DNA from: Agelas oroides
Lineage: Eukaryota > Porifera > Demospongiae > Agelasida > Agelasidae
Direction: 5' to 3'
DNA length: 64,000 nt
NCBI GenBank assembly: GCA_949130485.1
Contig: OX422186.1
Location: 10,724,271-10,788,270 of the forward strand
Part shown: in pieces, positions 1 through 57,447 of the stretch
Position numbering within the stretch: position 1 is the first letter of the stretch
Layout: every line of letters begins with the position of its first letter
Program-made: the position numbers and the translations under genes
Notes under the pieces: generated by a model
What the model saw: the letters and a program-made list of their open reading frames with translations, nothing else
What the model was told of the DNA's origin: nothing
Databases searched by the model: none

Positions 1-8453
<8,453 letters not shown>

Positions 8454-36600: not shown

Positions 36601-38844
36601 GAAGTGCGTAAAGTGTACATAAAGTAACAGAAATGTGCAAGTGCAGTGCATACTATACACAAGAGCACATAAGAACAGCGGCTTGAGTAGGAGCGTGTAA
36701 CTCCAATAGAAGCCCATAGTTTAGTCTAAATTATTGAAGAACACCCGGTCATGTGCTTAGCAACAATGGCATGTCTATGTGGAGCTCCGCAGTACGTGTT
36801 ACTAGTTTCAAATTTTACGGAGTTACACGCTCTTACTCAAACTGCCCGTTCTTATGCGCTCTTAAGTACATAAAATGACTTGGAGGCTGAGTTATAAAAA
36901 ATAAATCATACATGTACACCACCTCTCTCCCCAAGTATACTACTACTACATTGCAATCAAATGTATATGGAGATGGGAATAGAATGCTTCATGCACCTAC
37001 ACACGTACCTTTCACCAGCACCAGTTCCCCCGAGTTGGATATCCTGACGTCAGCATACGGTCTGTGGTTAGTGTCTACCTTCTGGTTTTCAATCTCCACC
37101 ACAAACTGTTCTCCCTCAATCACACGACCAAACACAACATGCACCCTGCAGTAGGCAAATAGTAATACAGGTCTTCAACCTACTAGGTACTAAGATTTCA
37201 CTACCATTTACCACCTAATGAATTGAGTGAAATTCACAGGGATTGCAATGACATGGAATCCTGCTATTTGTGTTAAATGTTTGTGGTCAATCTGGAAGGG
37301 TCGTGAGGAGAGGTTATTCAACCGCATTGTTATTTGAAAATGTTATTCATGCAAACTGGTAGACTCACCCATCCAAATGAGATGCTGGTCTTGTGGTACT
37401 AAAATGAAAAAGAGAAAACAGATCAAGATCTGCCGTGAAGCATGACTTGGTCACTTACATGAAAAACTGTGAACCGTTTGTGTTTGGTCCTTTGTTGGCC
37501 ATGGAGAGTAGGAACGGTTGGTCATGTTTGAGCTGGAAGTTCTCATCTATGCGTCAGAAGAACAAAAGTGACTCGGTACACAGAATTTGTATTGCACAGT
37601 TCAACCATAATTCTATTCCATGCTGTGCAACACAGGTGCATTAGTTTGGTTCTAGCATAGCCTTGTTCCCATGCTCTCGTGCAGGGGCCTGGGAACGAGG
37701 CTAGTGCTAGCATAGATAGATAGTAGGGTAGTACATGTACTAAAGACATGTTTGATGTCATGAGGACAAGGAGAGAAAAGTGAAAAGTTGGTAGTCGCTA
37801 GGAATTGAAGCCAGGTTCCTGGCCTGAGCTGCCCAGGTTCTGACCACTGAACTCTGTCCACTGAGCAATCACCAGCCCTCACTATATTCTGTTGGACACA
37901 TGTCCCACACCCACCTTTGAACATTCCACCATAGATTGACTCTCCACCAGTGCCATCACCTGGGGAGAATGAGGGAGGGGGCACAGGAATACATACAATA
38001 GCTATATAGCACCTGTAACATTCTTGTGCCCAGCCCACGCTCACCTCCTGGCGAAAAACGGTCTAGTGAACAAAGTCAAATTTCTCGGGCTTACTTCCAA
38101 AAAGTGGTAAGGACCAATGAGGTTACTAAATCACTAATTATTATATAGCACTTCCCTTACAATAGTAATTGTTTTTATCTCTACTTGGGTATCCATACCT
38201 TTTTTGAGTGGGTTTGGCGCAAAATGTTTTGAATGTTGCTAGCTAGGTTACACTGTCACAAGAGTGTGCACTACCCCAAGAAAATGGACTTGGTTCACCA
38301 GACCGTTTTTCCTCATGAGAGGGTGGGGTCTGGGACGAGACTACCTGTAACACAGTACAAAGCTCACAAATATGCCTTTTTACCGACACTGAAGTCTCCT
38401 CCCTGAACAATGAACCCCTTCACAATCCTGTGTATGGGAGTGCCCTTGTAGTGCAACGGTTTGAAGGTAGTCTTGCCCTCCCCTCTCTCACCTAATGAGG
38501 GAATTAGCATAGTGGCATGATCATGAAGGACAGTTATCAAAATTGTGTAGTCACATGACTGATTTCTGATTGGATGAAGGTCATGTGACCTGCACTAACT
38601 CATGCACTTCCTTTCGTTCTATCATTAGGTATCATGGAGACTTACCAGTGCAGAGGCACCTGAAATTTTCACATGTTTTGGGGCAGACATCAGTGAATAG
38701 TTCAAACACAATTCGTCCAGCTATGATCAGAGACAGAAAATTGATGGAAACCAAATCATGTGGTCTATGATACTTAGCTATACGTATAAACGTACATGGA
38801 ACACCATTGATAGTGATATCAAAGAAGACCCTTGGAAGTGGCAT
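33624..38844 (-). CDS. SR-cyclophilin (PPIG/NKTR-type peptidyl-prolyl isomerase), copy 2, complete
   Basis: Exons begin 38844-38796 ([16 protein letters not shown]), 38720-38646 ([20 protein letters not shown]), 38491-38384 (catalytic [14 protein letters not shown]), then about 37960-37915, 37547-37460, 37395-37365, 37145-37015, 36555-36270, 35928-35750, about 35591-35540 and the RS exon 34484-33624. Phases were checked through the cyclophilin domain. The Trp of CypA is His (PASHLDGVHVVFG), as in PPIG/NKTR. After the isomerase come a Ser/Glu then Lys/Arg block and an RS tail with RYRTPPRF, the conserved motif of Moca cyclophilins, and [16 protein letters not shown] runs. Such proteins sit in nuclear speckles and act on splicing factors and the RNA polymerase II tail. 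The second intron-containing 5' part lies outside the duplicated unit, which is why only this copy is whole. Its ATG is 113 bases from the head-to-head UBL gene. Confidence 0.9.
37795..37885 (-). mobile_element. tRNA-derived SINE, unit 2
   Basis: Counterpart of 24858-24950, with box-A-like TTGCTCAGTGGACAGAG on the minus strand and a degraded box B. Confidence 0.55.
38020..38343. mobile_element. Complete inverted-repeat element containing the duplication breakpoint
   Basis: The left arm 38020-38100 (TTGTGCCCAG ... CGGTCTAGTGAACAAAGTCA) pairs with the right arm about 38260-38343 (GACTTGGTTCACCAGACCGT ... TGGGACGAGACTA). Non-coding, in the intron after cyclophilin exon 38491-38384. Same family as 1869-2184 and 47298-48196. 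Confidence 0.8.
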
Positions 38845-38957
38845 AGCTAAGCGGAGGTGAGCTCTAAATAGAGCACAATAGTACTGTTCGACGCATGCGC
38901 ACACTAGCTCGTCCCCGGGACAAACAGTAAACAAAGACTTTTGCACTATATACAATC
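38845..38957. promoter_or_regulatory. Putative bidirectional promoter between cyclophilin and UBL gene A
   Basis: Only 113 bases separate the cyclophilin ATG (38844, minus) from the first UBL ATG (38958, plus). It contains CGCATGCGCAC, an NRF1-like palindromic motif. The paralogous interval near 49.5-49.84 kb keeps CGCATGCGCACAC but is enlarged by a palindrome insertion. Confidence 0.55.
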
Positions 38958-43020: not shown

Positions 43021-43086
43021 CCAGCACTTAAATATGTATTCTTATGTTCATTCTATCTTACCTCCATCTCTCTTCTTCCCCGACAG

Positions 43087-46000
43087 ATGAGGAGAGACAC
43101 CTTGCTGTCCTTAAGCTGGCCATCCGGCAGAAAGGTTCGCTGGACAAAACCATCATGCAGTGTGCCTTTATTGGCCCACCCCGCTCAGGTAAAAGCACCC
43201 TGATGAAACGTATGGTAGGTGAACGCCCCTCTCCTACCTCCTCCAGCACTGGAGTAGTTAACAAAGTGGTGCAAGTAGTCGTGAGATCATCAGCGGAAGC
43301 ATTTGACTCAACTTGGGTCAAGCTCAGCCATGATGACGAGACTGTTATGGTTGTCATGGATGCTAGTCAGGTAGCTGGCAATGAAACACATTTACAGGCT
43401 ACGGTACCTATAAAAGCTGTGCCTCAGACGGAGCATTGTACCACATTGCTTGACAAGAGTGTATCAGAGCATACATGTAGCAAGCATCAAGCTAAGCTTA
43501 GCAAGTGTAAATCTGCTAATTCTGATGTGGCTGATGCAAAACTTGCAGTTTCTTTTTGTAGAAGTGCTCTCCAGAGAAATCTTCAGAATGCAGAAAAGAT
43601 TTTACGAGACAAAGGCTGGTTGGTGTACCTGACAGACACAGGGGGTCAGATTGAGTTCCAAGAGCTCCTTCCTGTGTTGGTCTCAGGTCCGTCATTGTTC
43701 TTCTTGGTCTTCCGATTAGATCACGACCTGAACAAGCGATTCACAGTGCAGTATGTCCGCCCCAATGGGACACTTTCAGAACCCTACCAGTCCACTTTCA
43801 CAGTGAAGGAGGCCCTCCTCCAGTCCCTTGCCAGCATTGCCTCCATGGTGACGTATATCAACAGGGGTGGTGAGCAAGTTCCACTGAAATCCCAGGTGTT
43901 CTTTGTGGGGACACATAAGGATATGGTTTCTGATCAGGAAATTGATCACATTGATTGTGCACTTCAACAGTTGGTGACCTCCACAGGTCTGTTCCGTAAA
44001 GGCATAATCCAGTTTGGCACTAAGTCCCACATGTTACTGGCAGTGAACAACCTATCTGATGATGATTCTGACGTCCAACTAGTTCGAGCTGCTGTGGAGC
44101 GACTAGGCAGGCGGGGTGGCTTCAATGTCAGGGCCCCTCCTTCCTGGCTGATTTTCAGCCTGATCATTCGACAACACGAGGGCCGTGTTCTTAGCTATGA
44201 GAAGTGCTTCGAGGTAGCCAGGCAGTGTGGCATCATGACACAAGGGGAGCTGAATGAAGCTCTTTGGTTTCTCCACACGAAGGTAGGTCTGATCCGTCAC
44301 TTCCAGGGAGAGGGGCTGGAAGACCTCCAGAAGATTGTGATCCAAGACCCCCAGGTTCTCTTTGATATGATAACTGACCTGGTGGTGGAGACATTCACTT
44401 TTGATAAAGCTGACCCAGTCGTTCAGGAAGATTTCAAGAGAAAAGGTATCTTCCCATTTAGCAGCTTTGAGAGGATTAGTGGGAGTTCAGGTCATCTCCT
44501 GACTCCGTCCCGGCTAGTGAATCTCCTGGAGCACCTTCACATCATTGCCCCACTTGAAGAGGAAGGGGAGAAGAAATACTTCATGCCATGCGTACTGTCA
44601 CATGCCCAGCCTGCAGAAGATGTTTCAGGGTTATCTGGAGAACAATCAGCTGAACCAAGCTCCAACAGCTCCTCCCTCCTGATTGGCTTCAGATGTGGCT
44701 ACTGCCCCAAGGGTCTCTTTGCAGCCCTGGTGGTGTACCTCTTAGCTAACGAAAAGAGTCACTTTCGATGGAGGCTCCAATGTGATAGAATCTTCAAAGA
44801 TCAGATCTCATTTTCTGTTGGTCCCTATGACACGGTCTCGATAACAGTGCAACTGAAATATTTCGAGATTAGCTGCACCCCTGAGTTGAGTGACGATCGC
44901 TGTTTTCCTCTTGCCACAATGTGTGGAGAAGTACGACGTTGCATCGAGACAGGGATCAACAAAGTTACTTCAGCTCTGCACTACACACAGGACACCCACT
45001 ATCTGGCCTTCTACTGTCCTGGGGACCATCAAAGTTCTCACTCAATGGAACCTCACCCGGCAGAAATCATCGACATCTATGGCAACATCCTATCCATGGC
45101 AACACCTGATGACATCGTACCATGCACCCTCCGGTGTGAACTAGCAAAAGGGAAGGTGTTCAAACTACCCCCTGGACATATGAGGTGGTTCACTAAGGTA
45201 CATAGTGGAGTTTGAATAGCCTAGTTTCCAGGCCTTCCTTGGAGGTGGAGAAGACCTGGGAGATGCAAAAAAAGTACTACAAACATTCAAAAACTGAAAG
45301 AGGGAAGGCCTGGGAATAAAGCTAGAATTTGTATGGATGTGGGGTGTGCAGTGCATTGTGTCATGTGACAGCTTCTCCATACATGTGATGTTAGTTTCCT
45401 GCTCTAATTATCAGGCACGGTTTAGTATTACTAGTCATTGTCATGTGACTGGATGTGTTTCATTACATACAGGAGTGCAGTGGAAGGCAGCAACAAGAGA
45501 GACAGTCCCCAGGAGAAACCGGTGTGTGTGCGTGCATGCATGCATGCGTGCACATGTGTGTGTGTGTGTGCGCATGACTATAACTGTATGCATGATACCG
45601 TAGGGCCAGTTTTAATTGTGGAGCTTAATGTTTACGTTCCACACTTTTTCAAGCCAATTGCATATTTAATTATTGCCAATTGGGATGGGCTATTAATAGA
45701 ATAATTCAGTACGTGACATGTGACAGCACAGAGAGCTAGAGAAGATGGCAAGTCGAGTCATCGTACCCGAGATGTACAGCCTGAGAGTGTTGTTCTCATA
45801 TTATTTTACAAATGAGTATGGTGGGAGAAAAGCTACATGTAGATATCGAAGAAGACAATGCCAAAAATGATCCAAGGGCAGTTGCAGCTTGAAAGTGTGG
45901 CATTGTTGTCAGCCACATACTGAGGGAGGCAGCCAGGACAGTGTGGCTTGTTCACTGGCTTAAGTATTGAGGAAGACTCATGATGGCAGGTTAACGTTAG

Positions 46001-46798
46001 CAACACTAATGCTAGCCACATGCTCGTGCACCAGTATACCCCATATACTCATTGATTATGTAAATTAATGTTTGCGTTCCAATTTTTGTGAACTAAACTA
46101 AACTCTCATTTTGCAATTATTAGACCATTGCAATTAAAAACAGTCCTACAGTATTATTGTACTTCCACAAAATACTATATATCACTTCTTCCTCTCCTAT
46201 AGTTCTACCACCTTTGTTCTCCACTGCTGCCACAGGATCAGGGACTGCATGTCCCAGGATAGGTCAGTATACCTGTGGGATATGAGCATTAAACAGTATA
46301 CCTAGAGAAGTCAGTGTGCATGTTGATGTACACAAAGGGTGACCACTAAACAAACCAGGGATTATCAGTAGTGCAGTTTCTGTGTAAACTACTTGTAGTG
46401 TAATACTACTTGTAGTGTAATACTGCACCATGTGAGTATGATATTGCCATGGTAACCAATAGTAAGCTTGAATTGTGTTGCCTCCGGCAGGAGACAGACC
46501 TGAGATGTGGCAGCTGCAGAAATTTGTCGGAGTGAGAGGAAGGGTGGTCAGGGTGATAGAGGAGATCTCTGCAGACTGGGAAAAACTGGCTCTGGCCCTC
46601 CGCTTCCGTGGTGTGGTCATTCGGGCAGTGAGGGAGAGTGAGCACTTCCAGGTGGAAAGAGCATGTCACACCATTCTCCATAGGTGGCTGGATGGGCAGA
46701 GCTTACAGCCAGTGACCTGGGACACCCTGGTGGAGTGTTTGGAGGACATTAATCATGGGTCTCTCGCTGGAGACCTGAGAAAGGAACTGGACCGATGA
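43087..46798 (+). CDS. ROC-COR-Death (ROCO-type GTPase) protein
   Basis: Exons 43087-45197, 45473-45521, 46236-46262 and 46491-46798 join in perfect phase (WFTK-ECSGRQQQ, ETG-SGTACPRI, RIG-DRPEMWQ). Seen: a P-loop GPPRSGKST about 30 residues in, DTGGQIEFQELLP (switch II/Walker B, as in ROC GTPases), FVGTHKDM (G4-like THKD), then a COR-like region (PPSWLIFSLIIRQHEGRVLS, GLIRHF, VIQDPQVLFDMITDLV, MPCVL) and a C-terminal globular part. The last exon is a Death domain (WQLQKFVGVRGRVVRVIEEI ... CHTILHRWLDG, TWDTLVECLEDI). ROCO proteins are GTP-regulated dimers; the Death domain implies homotypic coupling to an apoptotic or inflammatory complex. There is no kinase, LRR or ankyrin part in view. The first exon starts in phase 1, so at least one upstream exon is missing from this model; gene A at 39.2-39.73 kb is one candidate. 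Confidence 0.82.
45218..45324. repeat. TAGCCTAG palindrome
   Basis: TAGCCTAGTTTCCAGGCCTT ... GGGAAGGCCTGGGAATAAAG, immediately after the large ROC-COR exon. Confidence 0.8.
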
Positions 46799-49262: not shown

Positions 49263-49324
49263 CAGTTTGAGATAGTATTACCATAGATAGTATAGCCACT
49301 GTGGCTATACTATCATACACCATA

Positions 49325-49479
49325 TACATCTTGCTGCTGGACATCCGTGAATAGTTCCAACACAACTCTTCCAGCTATGATCAGAGACAGAAAATTGAAG
49401 GATGGAAACCAAATCATGCAATCTGTAACAGGAACATCGTTGATAGTGATATCAAAGAAGACCCTTGGAAGTAGCATAT
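49325..49479 (-). pseudogene. Orphan 5' exons of an SR-cyclophilin
   Basis: The minus strand encodes [16 protein letters not shown], a short intron, then GRVVLELFTDV, matching the first two exon parts of the cyclophilin at 38844-38646. The match breaks at ELFTDV, where 38.7 kb continues CPKTCENF. No further cyclophilin exons follow, so this is a stranded fragment from the duplication that also copied the adjacent UBL gene. Confidence 0.8.
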
Positions 49480-49573
49480 TGGTAGCTAGTCTCGTGACCA
49501 GCCGGAAAAAACTACGGAAAATCAAAAACAAAGAAGGATCATCCCTAATAGCAACAGTAGCCTCGTCCCCACG

Positions 49574-49678: not shown

Positions 49679-49836
49679 CCCCACGCCCATGGGCCACGCG
49701 CCATGGCCCACCCAAGGTTGGTCACGAGACTAACCGGTAGCTGAATTCTACAACGAGTACTTGCGTCGATATCGGATACGCATGCGCACACCATGCTGTC
49801 GAACTGGCAGCTCTGCGCTTGTGTAGTTGCATACAT

Positions 49837-50086
49837 TATAGCTATCTATGTTAGATGCCTTACCGGCACGATACTAGCGCTAGATATTCGAACAAGCGAT
49901 AAAGTAGAGGATTGTCAAAGCCAAGATCGAGCAAGTGGAAGGGATTCCTCCTGACCAGCAACGAATTATCTTTGCTGTTTGCTGGAAAGCAGTTGGATGA
50001 TAGTCACGCCCTAATTGACTACAACATCCAAGTGGAGTCAACCTTGGCCTTGCTGCTTGCATCTTGTTCGCAAACTACGTGGAGGG
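49837..50086 (+). pseudogene. Degraded leading ubiquitin-like unit of gene B
   Basis: Starts IAIYVRCLTGTILALDIRTS with no ATG (ATA in its place), contains small insertions that change frame more than once, and ends [10 protein letters not shown] followed, in another frame, by LVRKLRGG directly before the intact array. The homologous unit in gene A is also damaged, but differently. Confidence 0.7.
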
Positions 50087-53000
50087 ATGAAATTATTTGT
50101 CAAGACCCTGACTGGGAAGATAATAACGCTAGAAGTTGAATCCAGTGACACAATAGAGAATGTCAAACGAAAAATCCAAGACAAAGAAGGAATCGCCCCT
50201 GACCAGCAACAACTGATCTTTGTTGGTAGAGAACTAGAAAATGGCCAAACATTGAGCGACTACAACATTCAAAGAGAGTCCTCATTACTCTTAGTTCTTA
50301 GATTACACGAATTTCAAATATTTGTCAAGATCCCGAATGAGCAGCCAATAACCCTAGAAGTGGAAGCCAATGACATAATTAAAAACGTCAAAACAAAAAT
50401 CCAAGACAAAGAAGGGATTCCACCTGACCAGCAACAACTGAGGTCTAACGGTAGACAACTAGAAGATGACAGAACACTTGGTGACTACAATGTTCAAGAA
50501 GGGCACACACTGGATCTTGTACTCGGACCGCATGGAGGACCGAGCATGCAAGTGTACATACGAAAATCGTGTGGTACGTCTATAGCACTTCAAGTTGAAT
50601 CAATTGCCAATATCAAGGCCAAGATTGAAAGTGAAGAGGGAATCCCAGTACACAACCAAACGTTGATTTATAATGGCAAGAAAGTTGAAGATGGCCGAAC
50701 ACTGTCAGATTACAATATTGAAAAGGAAGCTCTGTTGCATTTAGTTGAAACAAAGGGTTTAATGCGAATCACTGTCAAGACCCAGGATGATAAGACCACT
50801 TTTGTAGATGTCAACCCCACTGAAACAGTCCTCAGTCTCAAAGTCAGAATATGGAGTGAAGTACCAGAAATGGTGACACCAAGTCTACAACGATTGATCT
50901 ACAATGACAAAGAGTTAAAGCAGAGCGAACCATTGAGTCACTATTCCATCTGTGCTGGCAGCACCATTTTTTGTGAGTGCATTCCAGAAGATACACTTGT
51001 ACGTGTTAAGTTGCTCAGTGGTAAAAGTATAAGTATAACAATCCATCTCAATGCGAAAATTGCAACACTAAAATCCAAACTAAAGCCTCAGTCAGGGATT
51101 GAACCTGATTATCAGCAGCTCTTTTGTGATGGACAACTACTGGAAGATAGACGCACCATACGCAGCTACCATTTGAATGCAAGCTCTTCACTCATTCTCG
51201 GTAAGTTCACTGCCTATAAGACCGTACGCAATATTATGTTCGCATTCAGATACAAGCAGACTTGTACCAGGCCCCAAAAATACATGAATGCTGCCTGAGT
51301 TCCATCCCTCGCAACATTTTAACCCAGGATTAGCCTCGTCCCCAGGCCCATTCAATGTTTCACACGGGCCTGCGAAATGAGGCTAACCAATGGTGGTCCT
51401 ATTAATATGCATTATTAATTTCCCAGATAATAGACTGAATATTTATCCTATGCTCGTAGTATTGTTGCATAAGCTGGAATGTCTCTTGTGCAGGGGGAGA
51501 TATAACCTGTAAACCTTTAACTTGCAAAAGAAGCTAAGGCCGAGACAACCTATCTTGAGCCTTGTCAACTTCTTTTTCCAATGATAGTAGCTGAGCTGTG
51601 ATTTTCTAAGTATAAGACTGGGTGCTAAAGAAACCTATGTTTCTCATTATTACACGAGTTTTAATGATTAACTTCTGTAGGTAAAGCGGACTACATCAGT
51701 GAGCGAATGGAAGAGTCAGTTGATTCGAGAGGGAAGCAACTAGCATGGAGAGAAGAAGGTGTGCAAATTGAAGTGCCGGCAGGAGCTGTCCCAGAAGGAA
51801 AAGAGGCTGTAATAGGGATGCGCAAGTACGAGACCCAGCACACACAGTTCACTTTTCTTGATGACACAGACCCTGTTAGTCCAGTGTACGAGCTGTACTG
51901 CTCCCACAAAGTCTTCAAAGAGAGGATCAACGTATCATTCAACCAAGCTGGCACCGATCAAAGGTGCTTTATGCAGGCCTCACGAGTGCCTCAATGGAAG
52001 AAAGACTTCACTCCTGAATACCAGTTCAGTTGTATTCCGGGAGGAGAGTTCAAACCGCGAAGTGGTGGAATCATCCAGCTGGAGCGGCTCAATTGCTATC
52101 TTCTCATAGCAAGTAAGTTGACTTTAAACCTCATGACAATTCCTTAGTAATGAACTGTGTGCAGATGTGCTTGTTCCAACAAACTCTCGCTGAGTTTCAC
52201 ACTGTATTTCTCTCAGGTCCCAGACCCAAGCCATTTTGGAAGAGGTTGTTCAGGATTGGAGACACTGGATCTCATACGCCTGAAATACTATCTTTATGTA
52301 AGTTTTTTCATCTGAAAGATATATGGTCTTTCAGTTACACTGTAAACAAGTCAGTCCTTCAGATATGTTCAATATGACTTGGTATGTAGGAGTGGTCATT
52401 AATTGGGTATGAGTGAGCCTTATGTTAGTTGTAGAGTGAACATTGTTAGCTGCCCAGGATGGTGACCGCTTTTTCGTTATAGTATTTTCATAATTTTGTC
52501 AGTGTGTGGTCTAAATGCTGTTCTTGTTTCCAGTTGCATTCTGGAAATGTACACTCAGTCTATAGTCTAGTCTGTAGTCTAGTCTGTAGGCTTTGCTGTC
52601 AGATCAGTGGTTAAAACAACCATCTTGTGCTGGTAGTGATAGATAATTACCCCGCGCGCATGCGCAAGGGGTAAAGTGATCGGTCGTGTCCGTCTGTCGT
52701 CGTCGTCCGTCCGTCTGTCGGCACAAAAAACGCCAGTTCTCCAGATCCAGGCCATTCTATTAGTGCTAAATACCTTCAAACTGTGCAAAATGTTGACAAA
52801 CTGCCTTGTCTGTGCTTATTTCGCTAGATACATTCTACAAATACCTAAAATCCTGCGTTTTGAGTTGGCATCGTGGGCACGCCTATCGATCATACCCAGA
52901 TACCTGGCCACTGCGTGAGACGACGGTTTCAGTGTTCCTAGGGCTCACTCTACAGCGTGCATTTGTGAGATGACGATTTGCTCCTATCCTCAAGGAAGCA

Positions 53001-56000
53001 CATGCATAGCTATGTGGCATGCGGGGTATGTGCTCTACAGAGCTCTAGTTCAATTAGCCATGACCCGAGAAGCATAGCTACTAATTGATCTATATCACTG
53101 CCAGCACAAGTTGGTTGTGGAGTGGTTACCTTGGTTGCAGACAAGCTGAAGATTTAGGGGTTTTGTTATAGCCTCATCCCCAGGCCCCGCTCCAAAAATC
53201 AGGAAAAGGGCCTGGTCACACTTACAAAAATTCCCGTATGTGCTGTGTCAGCAGTTTTTGTTTGGAGTAGACGAATCATGTTCGTCCATTACTAATTGCT
53301 AAGTTCTTGACCATGTGAAAGTAGTAGACTCATTCCAAGACTATTTGAAAATGCGAATGAGGCTAGCAGACTTATCTTAGACCTCGAATTTTAGAAACTT
53401 AGAACTTTTGCCTCCCAGGATTTGCCTGAAGTCGCTCCATATCAAGATCTGTTCACCTACTCTGTAATGCCATCATCAACAGTAGCTGGCTACCATGTGA
53501 TCACGTAATTGTTACATAATATGCTGACTTAGCACATACAGGAAATTTTGCAAGTGTGACCAGGCCCTTTTTCCCTGATTCTTTGAGCAGGGCCTGGGGA
53601 TGAAGCTATGGTTTGGTGTAATTGCATAAGGGGAAGTTGTTCCAGGTTATCATACAACCATAATCCTGCAGCTCTTTAACCACTGAACATGTGATGTGTG
53701 AGGGAGTCACCTGATTTGCTAGTGGTAACTTCCTCATGTTGACACATTGACATCTTTGTGTTTGATCTGCCTCATAGGTTGTAGTACTAAAATAAACCTC
53801 TTATCTTTTCATTTTCTTTGCAACCAGAGTAACCACTCTTGTTTTTGTGGTGAACTATGCAACTCCTAGTCACCTAGTCTGCATGTGCAGGCTGTGCTTT
53901 CCTGATGCACTTACAATGTAGCTTGTTAACGGTTGTATGGCAATGGCTGCAGTCTGAAGACGTAGATAGCAGTGAAGAAAGCGTTTGGCTTGACAGCGGT
54001 GGTCTCAAACTTAACCATTTCACACGGAGTTTACCTACAGTTTCATTGGGAGCCATAGGTAGTTATCGTTCAAGAAAGCGCTAGTAATCGCTCAACACAA
54101 CACACTCACCAGGAAGTTCATGATGTAATAGGGTGGGACATTCCAGTCTCATTCTCAGGCACTCTGAATTTGAATCCCAATCACTAACTAGCGAGCATTG
54201 CCGAGCCAGCAGAAAGTTGAATCGTTGGAAGGTCAGCGAACAGCTTGAAAGAGAGCTCACTCATTGAGAATTTGAACTGTAGCCATTGCTAGGCAGTTTT
54301 GTCGCTAAGGAGAGAAATGCTACACAGTTTTGTTGCTAAGGAGATAAACAATTTGATTGGCCATAGTATAATTAAAATAATGAAACCCTCGGGGCCTACG
54401 GGACCGATTTAGATCCCCTTGGAAACCATAAACACCCTTGCACTTCGCACGTGGGTGCTTATATAGGTTTCCGCAGGTATCTAATTCCTGTAGACTCCGA
54501 GGGTTTCATCGTACAAACTATATATATTCTCTTGGTTAAGACTGGAAGCTAACAAAGCAATTAAGGTTTGTCTCATGCACCTGCCAGGCTAGCCTCGTTC
54601 CCAGGCTCTTGTGCGGGGGAGGAGGAAAGAGAGCCTGGTACACACTGTTCGCGCATGCGCCAAATTCCCTTGGTAACCTGCATACTACTCCGCTACACTA
54701 AAATTACGGTCAATTTCTGTTTACCTGCTGAAAGGCCGCACTGCATAGTTACACTCCCTGTGGGACACATACGGGCGGTTTTGAAGTCAAAAACAATATC
54801 GCTTTGCCAGTAACGATCTGCATTGCTTCGTTCGAGGCAATCGGTGAACTTCAAAGGGACAGATTGCATCATTCACGTGCCGCAGCATTTAGCTGGAATG
54901 GACGAACGTGTGGACAATTCCTGCAAGCGAAGAGCTGAGTACCTTCATCGCTCCCTCATCATCGTCTACACAGAGCGTGGTCAGTGGCAGGCATCTTTTA
55001 TACGGGAGAAGTCGGCGTGCCTCGCGGAGGTTAGTGTAACGGAGCATATTTTACGGAAATTTCCAAATTCCCAGAAATCCTGGGAAAACTGAGCATGCGC
55101 AAACAGTGTGTACCAGGCTCTTTTCTCCCCGCCCACGCACAAGAGCCTGGGAACGAGGCTACTGCCAGGCATAAGATTCTCCACTTCACCCTTGTTTCTG
55201 TGGTAACAGATGGGTACTTTTCCAGATACTGACAGGAAGTTGTAGATATACCACAGGAAGTTGTAAAATGATGTTTCTAGTTCTATAAGCTAAGCTACCT
55301 TGTTTACAGTACAAAACTACTTTACTAATGACATACAATGAATCAAAACTACCATGTGTGTTTACTAACTAGGGGAATGCAGTGCATTGTGGGGCGAGCG
55401 TGAATGAGTTACATGATGCATTAGAGTTTCATATACACTGCAAAAACACTTAGGTTACTTTAACCACATTTTTAGGTTGTCTCAGTTGCATCAGTGCGAC
55501 TAAGGAATGCTACCAAATAGGTTTTCTTGAAAGTTCATTGAGAAGGTTTCCTTTAGTTACATTAGCTAGTCTCCTATTTCAGAAGACCTATTTGGCTACA
55601 TTCCTGGCATTTCCTGGCATTTCTAACCACAGCCATGCAACCAAGGAACTCTCCAGGAGCAGATATGTAAGATCAAAGAAACAACGAACCTCACTAAAAA
55701 TGCTGGCTTATAGGCTTTCTGAAATGAGATACTAATTAGGGAAGCTTCCTAACTACAGCACTCCTTGAACTTCAAGTGTCACGCACACAAAAGGAATGCA
55801 ACTGAGGTGACCAAAACATGGTTAAAGTAACCTAAACCTTAATTTTACAGTGATAGCACTACATTTACCCACTTGCATACACTAAGTCTCACATAACAAT
55901 AGGCTCGTTCCCAGGTCTTCTCCACCTCCAGCTGTAGCCTGTAACAGTAGAGGCGGGAAATCCCCAGGGGTGAGGCTAGGGTATCAAATGTATGCCGGTG

Positions 56001-57447
56001 TTCATGGAGCAATATAGCTTGGGTATAGCTATGTGCTCATCTGGGTAGCTATGTGGTTGGGTTCATTGTACACACTCTGTGTCGTTACAGTGGGGTAGTA
56101 GCTACAGCTGTAGGCAACAAATTTAGTCGCCAAGCAATTGGCCTGAAGAGTTGCAAGTCAAGGGTGAGGGTTCAACAGCTTAGTACGAACAAGTATATTC
56201 CATTGGTTTCCTGTGACTCCACATTTCGGCACTGTCTCCTCAAGTGTATGTCTATATAGTGGATATTTGCTGAGCCCATAGAGCTGTGGAATCAGGATTC
56301 TCTCAGCTATGGAGTATGGAGCCAGGTCTTTTTTGATGTAGTCTATATTGTCAGCTCATTTCCTGAGCACAATTACTGGAGTTGTGGTATGGAAGTTTCA
56401 TAAGTTCTTCTCTAGCTGTTGCTCATATTTGATCGAGTCACGCAGGCCTCCGTGATTCGAATTCTCACAAGCTGATCGCTCTGTACACTGAGCACTCTCC
56501 GCTGGTGGCAGAGTCACGAAGCACGCCGTCAATAATCAGTCTCGGTCCCTGTCGCGTTGGTTTCTATGCCTCAGTCTTTCTCTCCTTGTTTCCTCGGATT
56601 CCATAAGTGAGTCGTACATGCAACTTTTGTTCTGGCTTTCAAACGTAGCTAGCTACTATTCACTATTGTAACATGCATGAACAATCAACGAACCACATCT
56701 CCCTTATAAAACAGGCCTAGATGTTATATGACATGTGGAAATATTGCATCACGCACAAATAGGGCAGAATGCATATACGGAATACGCACGTACCATATAT
56801 ATATAGATATATATATATATGAATAAATATATAGACAATTTTCCATTTTCACCACAAGTGTGGGGCTCGCTGCGCTCGCCCCAATAACAACAAGCACCAA
56901 TCAGAGTGGAGAATAAACCACAGTAGACAGGGATTTATCAACCCTTGCCCTCAGGCTGCGCCCTTTATGGACCATAAATTCCTGTCTACTGTGGTTTATA
57001 AAACACCAAGATGCTGCAAATTTGTTTTGGATAACTGAAAATGAGTGGATGATCAACTGCTCTATATACATGTATGCACATGCACTACTGACAGTATATG
57101 AAGCCTTAGTAAGCACTCACCTGAAATTTACATTCTCTTTCATAGCTGAAAGGCCAAAGCTTCAACAATTACTAATACTCAAGCATAATGAAGATCAAGT
57201 GCGAATCATAGATGAGATATCGGGTAGCTGGTCCTATGCAGCAATTGCCTTTGGGTTTGATGGACCTTCAATTGACCAAATCAAATTATCATCACAGCAG
57301 CAAGCAAGGGAAGCATGTAGAATGATGATGACAGAATGGCTCAAAGGAGCAAAACGAGGACCCCCCACCTGGGGGACATTAGTACGAGCCTTACAGGATG
57401 CTGAGTTTGTAGACTTAGCAGACAAGCTACTGAATGTTTTGAAGTAA
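50087..57447 (+). CDS. Five-UBL, ZU5, linker, Death-domain protein (gene B)
   Basis: Exons 50087-51200, 51681-52112, 52217-52297 and 57146-57447, all joined in phase 1; an optional exon may lie at 53891-54058. The first exon holds five ubiquitin-like units: [88 protein letters not shown]. Units 1-2 keep EGI.PDQQQL and DYN motifs; 3-5 are increasingly diverged. Most units lack a terminal RGG, so cleavage to free ubiquitin is unlikely. The ZU5-like exon has [20 protein letters not shown] and a Cys-containing beta sandwich, as in UNC5/PIDD. The last exon is a Death domain ([35 protein letters not shown]). Inferred role: a Death-fold adaptor with a UBL scaffold. Start: ATG 50087 follows directly on the degraded unit; an upstream start cannot be excluded. 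Confidence 0.75.
51331..51385. repeat. TAGCCTCG palindrome in gene B intron 1
   Basis: TAGCCTCGTCCCCAGGCCCA facing GGGCCTGCGAAATGAGGCTA. Confidence 0.8.
52647..53032. mobile_element. MITE-like repeat with ACCCCGC..GCATGC ends
   Basis: The left end TACCCCGCGCGCATGC and right end GGCATGCGGGGTA are inverted repeats of about 15 bases. The core contains a GTCCGTCTGTCG-type simple repeat. Non-coding. Confidence 0.6.
53168..53610. mobile_element. Inverted-repeat element, about 90-bp arms
   Basis: TAGCCTCATCCCCAGGCCC ... GGGCCTGGTCACACTTAC at the left pairs with GCAAGTGTGACCAGGCCCTT ... GGGCCTGGGGATGAAGCTA at the right. It is in the large gene B intron. Confidence 0.85.
53891..54058 (+). CDS. Possible alternative exon of gene B
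   Basis: A stretch of 56 codons is open between an acceptor (CATGTGCAG) and a donor (CCATAG|GTAGTT) and is phase 1 at both ends, so it could be included between 52297 and 57146 without breaking frame. It reads [20 protein letters not shown], then [20 protein letters not shown]. No domain was recognised; splice sites are moderate. Confidence 0.25.
54378..54512. repeat. Imperfect inverted repeat
   Basis: ATGAAACCCTCGGGGCCTAC ... GTAGACTCCGAGGGTTTCAT around a core with its own short pairings. Probably another small non-autonomous element. Confidence 0.65.
54590..55162. mobile_element. Inverted-repeat element of about 570 bp with TAGCCTCG ends
   Basis: Arms of about 75 bases: CTAGCCTCGTTCCCAGGCTC ... 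CCTGGTACACACTGTTCGCG against CAAACAGTGTGTACCAGGCT ... GGGAACGAGGCTA. The core carries an open frame (54823-55092, plus) of 89 codons with no recognisable domain, so it may be chance or captured sequence. Confidence 0.88.
55900..55982. repeat. Degenerate AGGCTCGTTCCCAGG palindrome
   Basis: AGGCTCGTTCCCAGGTCTTC with a weak complementary end at CCCAGGGGTGAGGCTA. No gene is seen in 55163-57145 apart from the repeats listed. Confidence 0.55.
56440..56520 (-). mobile_element. tRNA-like SINE head
   Basis: The minus strand shows box-A-like AGTGCTCAGTGTACAGAGC and box-B-like GAATTCGAATCACGG. The fold is not a complete tRNA. Confidence 0.45.
56917..57002. repeat. Hairpin with 25-bp arms
   Basis: ATAAACCACAGTAGACAGGG paired with TTCCTGTCTACTGTGGTTTAT. 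It ends about 145 bases before the Death exon of gene B. Confidence 0.85.

Follow-up and report, generated by a model that had tools for sequence, protein, structure and literature searches.

A candidate gene for a protein with five ubiquitin-like units, a ZU5 domain and a Death domain in the sponge Agelas oroides

Does the genome of the sponge Agelas oroides encode a protein in which a row of ubiquitin-like (UBL) units is joined to ZU5 and Death domains, and what might such a protein do? The question is raised by a candidate gene at positions 50087 to 57447 of a 64,000-nucleotide stretch (the window; C4:10724271-10788270) of the 259-Mb, 141-contig assembly examined here. The original prediction, made from the letters alone, had drawn one reading frame through five diverged UBL units, ZU5, a 27-residue linker and Death, and both the 642 open codons of this frame and its Pfam domains bear it out. 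The exon anatomy given below is very probably right. Taken together with the mechanism proposed later, we offer more tentatively the reading of the locus as a protein-coding gene for a 642-residue UBL(x5)-ZU5-linker-Death protein; under the same joint reading, the gene would have arisen when ZU5 and Death exons of phase 1, drawn from a very large repertoire of Death domains, were added to a diverged polyubiquitin array.

Exon chain and predicted product

Four plus-strand exons (50087 to 51200, 51681 to 52112, 52217 to 52297 and 57146 to 57447) splice to 642 amino acids without an internal stop, and no lesion was found in these codons or in the splice sites. The introns of 480, 104 and 4848 nucleotides (nt) are all in phase 1 and bounded by GT-AG, each with the donor GTAAGT. 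Exon 1 carries the presumed start codon and the five UBL units, matched by Pfam ubiquitin in five stretches; exon 2 carries the ZU5 domain; exon 3, delimited by its splice sites, encodes the basic linker; and exon 4, which follows intron 3 (52298 to 57145), holds the Death domain and the stop codon. Scanned as single exons, ZU5 (25.7 bits, cut-off 21) and Death (26.7 bits, cut-off 22.6) both exceeded their thresholds. The profile check that had been proposed for the product succeeded for ubiquitin (2.1e-94, five stretches) and ZU5 (23.3 bits), but not for Death, which fell just below its cut-off at 21.8 bits. A chance open frame was ruled out by the Pfam E-values, the acceptor phase and the ratio of non-synonymous to synonymous substitution rates (dN/dS; see below). 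In the product, Pfam returned no CARD match and, at E up to 1, neither NACHT nor TRADD-N, although for the latter Pfam may not cover the extended clades described in the available text of PMC8195603. Rfam gave 0 matches at gathering score over the whole window.

The UBL units span about 50087-50311, 50312-50539, 50546-50761, 50762-50992 and 50993-51200, and the genome-wide ubiquitin search matched them at 50093-50305, 50318-50524, 50597-50749, 50768-50974 and 50999-51196. As in polyubiquitin, they lie head to tail in one exon, and 58/76 residues of unit 1 are identical to ubiquitin. In contrast to polyubiquitin, identity falls to 25/76 by unit 5, ZU5 and Death stand at the end, and no LRGG-Met joint occurs between any units of the array, whose tails read LRLHE, HGG-PS, ETKGL, CIPED and LILG. 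A ubiquitin precursor was thus ruled out, in agreement with the earlier view of the array as a fixed scaffold. Scanning the UBL exon against NCBIfam yielded a Rad23 match (135.6 bits, below the cut-off of 207.3) and one trivial match, with nothing for the other two exons scanned, and a plasmid search with the same exon yielded a single record, from Ruminococcus, at 68% across 36% of the exon.

Immediately upstream, at 49793 to 50086 on the plus strand, lies a decayed sixth ubiquitin unit, the first in order, which was recognised from tblastn pieces and by alignment with two duplicates of the array, one at 38.9 kb in the window and one on contig C20. Its original ATG is gone and insertions of 1, 7 and 13 nt disrupt its frame, so that translation is presumed to start at 50087. 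Five ATGs occur from 49780 onward, each meeting a stop ahead of 50087, and the decayed unit is now probably 5' untranslated sequence.

A Death profile built from the window exon and relatives in this genome (28 rows) matched the solved Death domains of ankyrin-2, RIPK1, PIDD and FADD (best 5.6e-7). We asked of the genome whether this last exon belongs to the same gene. The phase-1 acceptor AG is placed identically in 28 of 30 related Death loci (one of them, L061, judged from an extrapolated start); in the remaining two, by eye, it lies three bases earlier in the same phase. This type of Death exon is therefore normally spliced to an upstream phase-1 exon. Where ZU5 and Death rows lie within 15 kb of each other, all 13 pairs are on the same strand and none on opposite strands, with Death downstream of ZU5 in 8 of the 13, at distances of 1.9 to 11.3 kb. 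These counts compare 83 ZU5 rows (the 80 ZU5 matches listed for the genome plus those of the window, C20 and C9, which were added) with 82 Death rows; four pairs involve added rows, and one C6 Death sits in three pairs. When the added rows are left out, 9/9 pairs are same-strand, with Death downstream in 6. Because the acceptor phase is kept and the ZU5/Death neighbours all share a strand, the distant exon is probably part of the gene and would be spliced into the same message; phase, strand and kin in the genomic sequence are the basis for this.

Alternatively, the UBL-ZU5 message could end elsewhere and 57146-57447 belong to another gene. The 4848 nt of the intron favor such a split, as does the duplicate on C20, where 30 kb yielded two more distant Death exons but no copy of this one. 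However, an exon with a phase-1 acceptor needs a phase-1 donor upstream, and eight open reading frames (ORFs) in intron 3 (seven on the plus strand; ten ORFs were scanned in all) gave no Pfam match over cut-off that would reveal another domain. The recurrence of ZU5 followed by Death on one strand and the one-frame UBL-Death fusions described below also speak against two genes, which makes this alternative quite improbable.

Duplicates and selective constraint

In the related locus within the window (38.96-39.75 kb), two UBL units remain (Pfam ubiquitin, 161.6 bits), and the sequence after them resembles by eye the boundary of intron 2 and exon 3. DNA of intron 2 plus exon 3 occurs at two places genome-wide, the window and C20. 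A UBL place within 15 kb was seen for only two of the listed ZU5 rows, those of the window and C20:6433200, in a comparison that took 65 of 136 UBL rows, one or a few per array. The first unit has been lost through different lesions in the three copies: the insertions named above in the window, a stop codon and inserted DNA in the 38.9-kb copy, and on C20 an insertion of ~5 kb with long inverted ends (L044, about 1510-6550, by eye). Further lesions of the C20 duplicate are the loss of 22 nt from unit 2 and a TGA within ZU5.

Between window and C20, dN/dS was 0.29 over 531 codons (bootstrap 0.19-0.44), with 0.28 for the UBL exon (0.16-0.46) and 0.26 for the ZU5 exon (0.10-0.59). Codons touching gaps were omitted, and the C20 stop codon was omitted from the total but retained in the ZU5 value. 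Identity was 94.4, 92.4 and 93.8% in exons 1 to 3, compared to 76.3, 95.2 and 89.9% in introns 1 to 3. Between the copies, intron 1 and the first 363 nt of intron 3 each hold seven indels, exon 1 holds two (the C20 lesion and one in-frame), and exons 2 and 3 as well as intron 2 are free of them. Taking the 38.9-kb copy as the outgroup allowed changes in units 1 and 2 to be polarised. The window lineage had 6 synonymous and 4 non-synonymous changes and C20 had 4 and 8, with 1 change unresolved. For neutral non-synonymous fractions assumed at 0.78 to 0.70, the probability of no more than 4 in 10 is 0.010 to 0.047, on small numbers, whereas the 8/12 of C20 fit neutrality.

These values have to be weighed against the possibility that the window gene is itself a relic, a copy of a UBL-ZU5 family that is turning into a pseudogene like its C20 duplicate and has no present function. 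Three observations count against our reading and toward decay. The unit ahead of the present start is broken in the window, 38.9-kb and C20 copies alike. Exon 3 is relaxed, with 4 non-synonymous changes and 1 synonymous change between window and C20. Intron 2 matches the exons in conservation, so that identity alone is no sign of constraint there, and together with exon 3 it weakens the argument from constraint. The 22-nt deletion and TGA on C20 point in the same direction. On the other side stand the lesion-free codons and splice sites of the window gene, its dN/dS against C20 and, within the limits of small numbers, the low share of non-synonymous changes in units 1 and 2 of its own lineage. 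Overall, we consider a relic rather unlikely.

ZU5 domain, UBL array and a possible mechanism

A ZU5 profile made from the window exon and its relatives in the same genome (26 rows) matched the solved ZU5 domains of ZO-1, ankyrin and UNC5B (best 5e-11; UNC5B, 0.0028). In the proteins named by the original prediction, UNC5, PIDD and ankyrins, ZU5 stands ahead of Death as in the predicted product of the window gene, and the ZU5 and Death profiles match ankyrin, UNC5B and PIDD structures. The proposed likeness thus holds for these two domains. It does not extend to UPA, which Pfam did not recognise in the modelled product; the window gene has the 27-residue linker exon instead, and the UBL array in front. 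A search of intron 3 for a UPA exon with five exon-like queries gave nothing below E = 1, but the queries resemble one another only faintly (E 0.085-0.15), and Pfam matched none of the three that were scanned.

At the ZU5 self-cleavage site, 14/26 aligned rows read HFS and 4/26 HFC; six others show RFC, SFC, QLS, QFS, HIS or a gap. The equivalent residues of the window gene are RLN (52085-52093), as they are in the C20 copy. A self-cleaving ZU5 was ruled out on this basis. According to the passages available from PMC3210808, self-cleavage of CARD8 and NLRP1 needs the second serine of the motif, a change of Phe to His leaves CARD8 severely defective, and UNC5b carries Leu at the Phe position, a feature shared with the RLN of the window. 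The FIIND proteins NLRP1 and CARD8 couple ZU5 to a Death-fold domain, as the window gene would. One alternative is a sensor of their type, in which ZU5 would cleave itself, the proteasome would destroy the UBL half and the Death half would be freed. The HFS and HFC of the related rows fit this idea, and so does CARD8, which self-cleaves and whose N-terminal, ZU5-bearing half is degraded (PMC9213247, in the part available). Nevertheless, with RLN in both copies where CARD8 and NLRP1 require serine, UPA not recognised and, in further contrast to NLRP1 and CARD8, no NACHT or CARD match, such a sensor is highly improbable.

In vertebrates, the choice between survival, inflammation and death depends in part on linear ubiquitin chains attached to Death-domain complexes. 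We propose that the head-to-tail array of the window gene could, as a genetically encoded chain, permanently mimic linear (Met1-linked) polyubiquitin, resembling an uncleavable linear diubiquitin plus diverged units that is tethered to a Death-fold nucleator. The Death domain would self-assemble or join partner Death domains, ZU5 (RLN instead of HFS) would serve as a non-cleaving spacer, and ubiquitin readers would be gathered on the Death-fold platform with no ligase step. Since diglycine-Met joints are lacking, the array should resist deubiquitinases, and it would be unconjugatable, with Arg at the Lys48 and Lys63 positions of unit 1. As a whole, this explanation, a Death-fold platform with an uncleavable, unconjugatable mimic, seems to us quite possible, though short of probable.

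The residues kept by the first two units are consistent with reader binding. In Met1-linked diubiquitin, the distal Ile44 and proximal Phe4 patches are the sites bound by NEMO CoZi and HOIL-1 NZF, and recognition by OTULIN involves both moieties, as stated in the accessible text of PMC5135002. Unit 1 retains L8, I44, V70, R72, L73, I36 and L71 and carries H68L, K48R and K63R; unit 2 retains Q2, F4, T14 and E16, with its Ile44 patch mostly gone. Unit 1 would thus present Ile44- and Ile36-patch residues and unit 2 the Phe4 patch, a division of patches noticed after the fact. Several points tell against the mechanism. Unit 1 is without His68 and Gln2, and unit 2 without Glu64. The patch argument is post hoc, and a simple increase in divergence along the array, from unit 1 to unit 5, may suffice to explain it. 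Finally, the genome's sole match to CC2-LZ (NEMO-type) is below threshold (30.1 versus 35.3 bits) and has one internal stop.

The same array could also work in the opposite sense, as a soluble decoy or competitor that keeps ubiquitin readers or the proteasome engaged and so lowers signalling, with Death serving only as an address. Unconjugatable tails and the patch residues of unit 1 would fit a decoy no less than an activator, and the present evidence does not separate the two; we hold the decoy to be decidedly unlikely. Fusions of UBL chains to Death domains make it testable whether an encoded, uncleavable chain can substitute for the ligase step.

Related architectures and other features of the window

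Genome-wide searches scored the best candidates, 150/870 and 150/327 for Death and 150/164 for ubiquitin. The Death repertoire is very large: all 150 scored among the 870 first-look candidates matched. At least 136 ubiquitin rows were found. A common reading frame for UBL and Death occurs at four other places. At C1:30500452-30502983, nine UBL rows and a Death row lie in one 884-amino-acid frame, and in its last 701 nt, which were read, a 233-amino-acid stretch exceeds both Pfam cut-offs (ubiquitin 110.9, Death 23.8 bits). At C11:1713537-1715321, four UBL rows, one of them partial, and Death lie in a 407-amino-acid frame; a further upstream unit carries TGA. On the plus strand of C20, at 6275494-6275988 and 6301148-6301642, Death precedes UBL in-frame with 66 nt between, within frames of 278 and 659 amino acids; this comparison used 59 of the 136 UBL rows, one or a few per array. 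The C1 and C11 frames, which pass from a partial UBL unit into Death, combine the two in one frame as the window gene would, whereas the C20 frames have Death first. A caveat concerns C1, where the last UBL unit is incomplete and the joint carries an acceptor-like AG, so that splicing within the frame is possible. No listed ZU5 lies within 15 kb of these frames. UBL with Death therefore recurs in the genome, and UBL-ZU5-Death is the variant of this locus.

The kin fusions suggest that a ubiquitin-chain signal is built into proteins of cell-death or immune signalling. By repeatedly placing UBL chains and Death domains in a single polypeptide, with either one first, the genome would have a further way to achieve the coupling known from vertebrates. 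A bolder claim, that the genome holds a family of hard-wired linear-polyubiquitin mimics on Death domains, each with its own uncleavable, ligase-independent chain, is unlikely on present evidence. If true, this family (five units here, nine full-length rows on C1) would bypass the marking of a Death-domain complex by a linear ubiquitin ligase, and its evolving part would be array length and domain order (UBL-ZU5-Death, UBL-Death, Death-UBL).

A UBL array in front of ZU5 and Death had been called an unfamiliar architecture. In the open-access PMC text searched, no description of it was found, but the four kin frames and published fusions limit its novelty. As far as the available text of PMC8195603 goes, TRADD-N/Death-fold expansions in marine animals are large and variable, include fusions to polyubiquitin and UPA-ZU5, and are interpreted as immune or anti-invader systems. 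This genome likewise has large, variable Death-fold repertoires. Compared by text descriptions, the window gene differs in that no TRADD-N was recognised and that the UBL array and ZU5 stand directly with Death. We file it as a variant of the kind of Death-fold expansion, with polyubiquitin fusions, already published there; it would add a ubiquitin-based branch to the known Death-fold shuffling in marine animals. UBQ is also listed among the domains in a figure legend on sponge NLRs (PMC12909245, legend text).

Among the scored rows, the Death exon closest to that of the window lies on C9 (65% identity); 1.9 kb upstream of it is a ZU5 match of 21.2 bits (cut-off 21). The region ahead of this exon (L077, 2450-4612 and 7250-7984) holds the cut-off-level ZU5 exon and a 720-amino-acid repeat frame, LRAT-like by eye, with no Pfam match at E up to 0.01. 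On C6, a TRAF/MATH domain and a ZU5 (21.6 bits, cut-off 21) share a single open frame (L037, 1303-3342, minus strand). Arrays of ubiquitin-family units occur on C15, with 7 top-scoring rows of a polyubiquitin-like array in a 554-amino-acid frame, and on the minus strand of C1 (30577333-30582129), with 21 rows in one open frame of 1804 amino acids, a very long UBL array.

Elsewhere in the window, a plus-strand frame of 727 amino acids (43032-45215) matches COR (28.2 bits), Roc (21.4 bits) and GTPase (19.7 bits), each below its Pfam cut-off, and is followed by a second Death exon (46472-46798, plus strand; 28.0 bits, over cut-off). DNA related to this COR/Roc-Death region occurs twice on C20. 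A cyclophilin exon on the minus strand (38632-38955; Pfam, 31.9 bits) lies head to head with the 38.9-kb UBL copy. By eye, a similar peptide is present on the minus strand at about 49313-49480, upstream of the 50-kb gene, and the duplicated unit may include a shared promoter. Finally, numerous weak tblastn rows at about 11.9-21 kb recur, with identical peptides, ~13.5 kb further on at 25.4-34.5 kb, as if this region were a tandem duplication.

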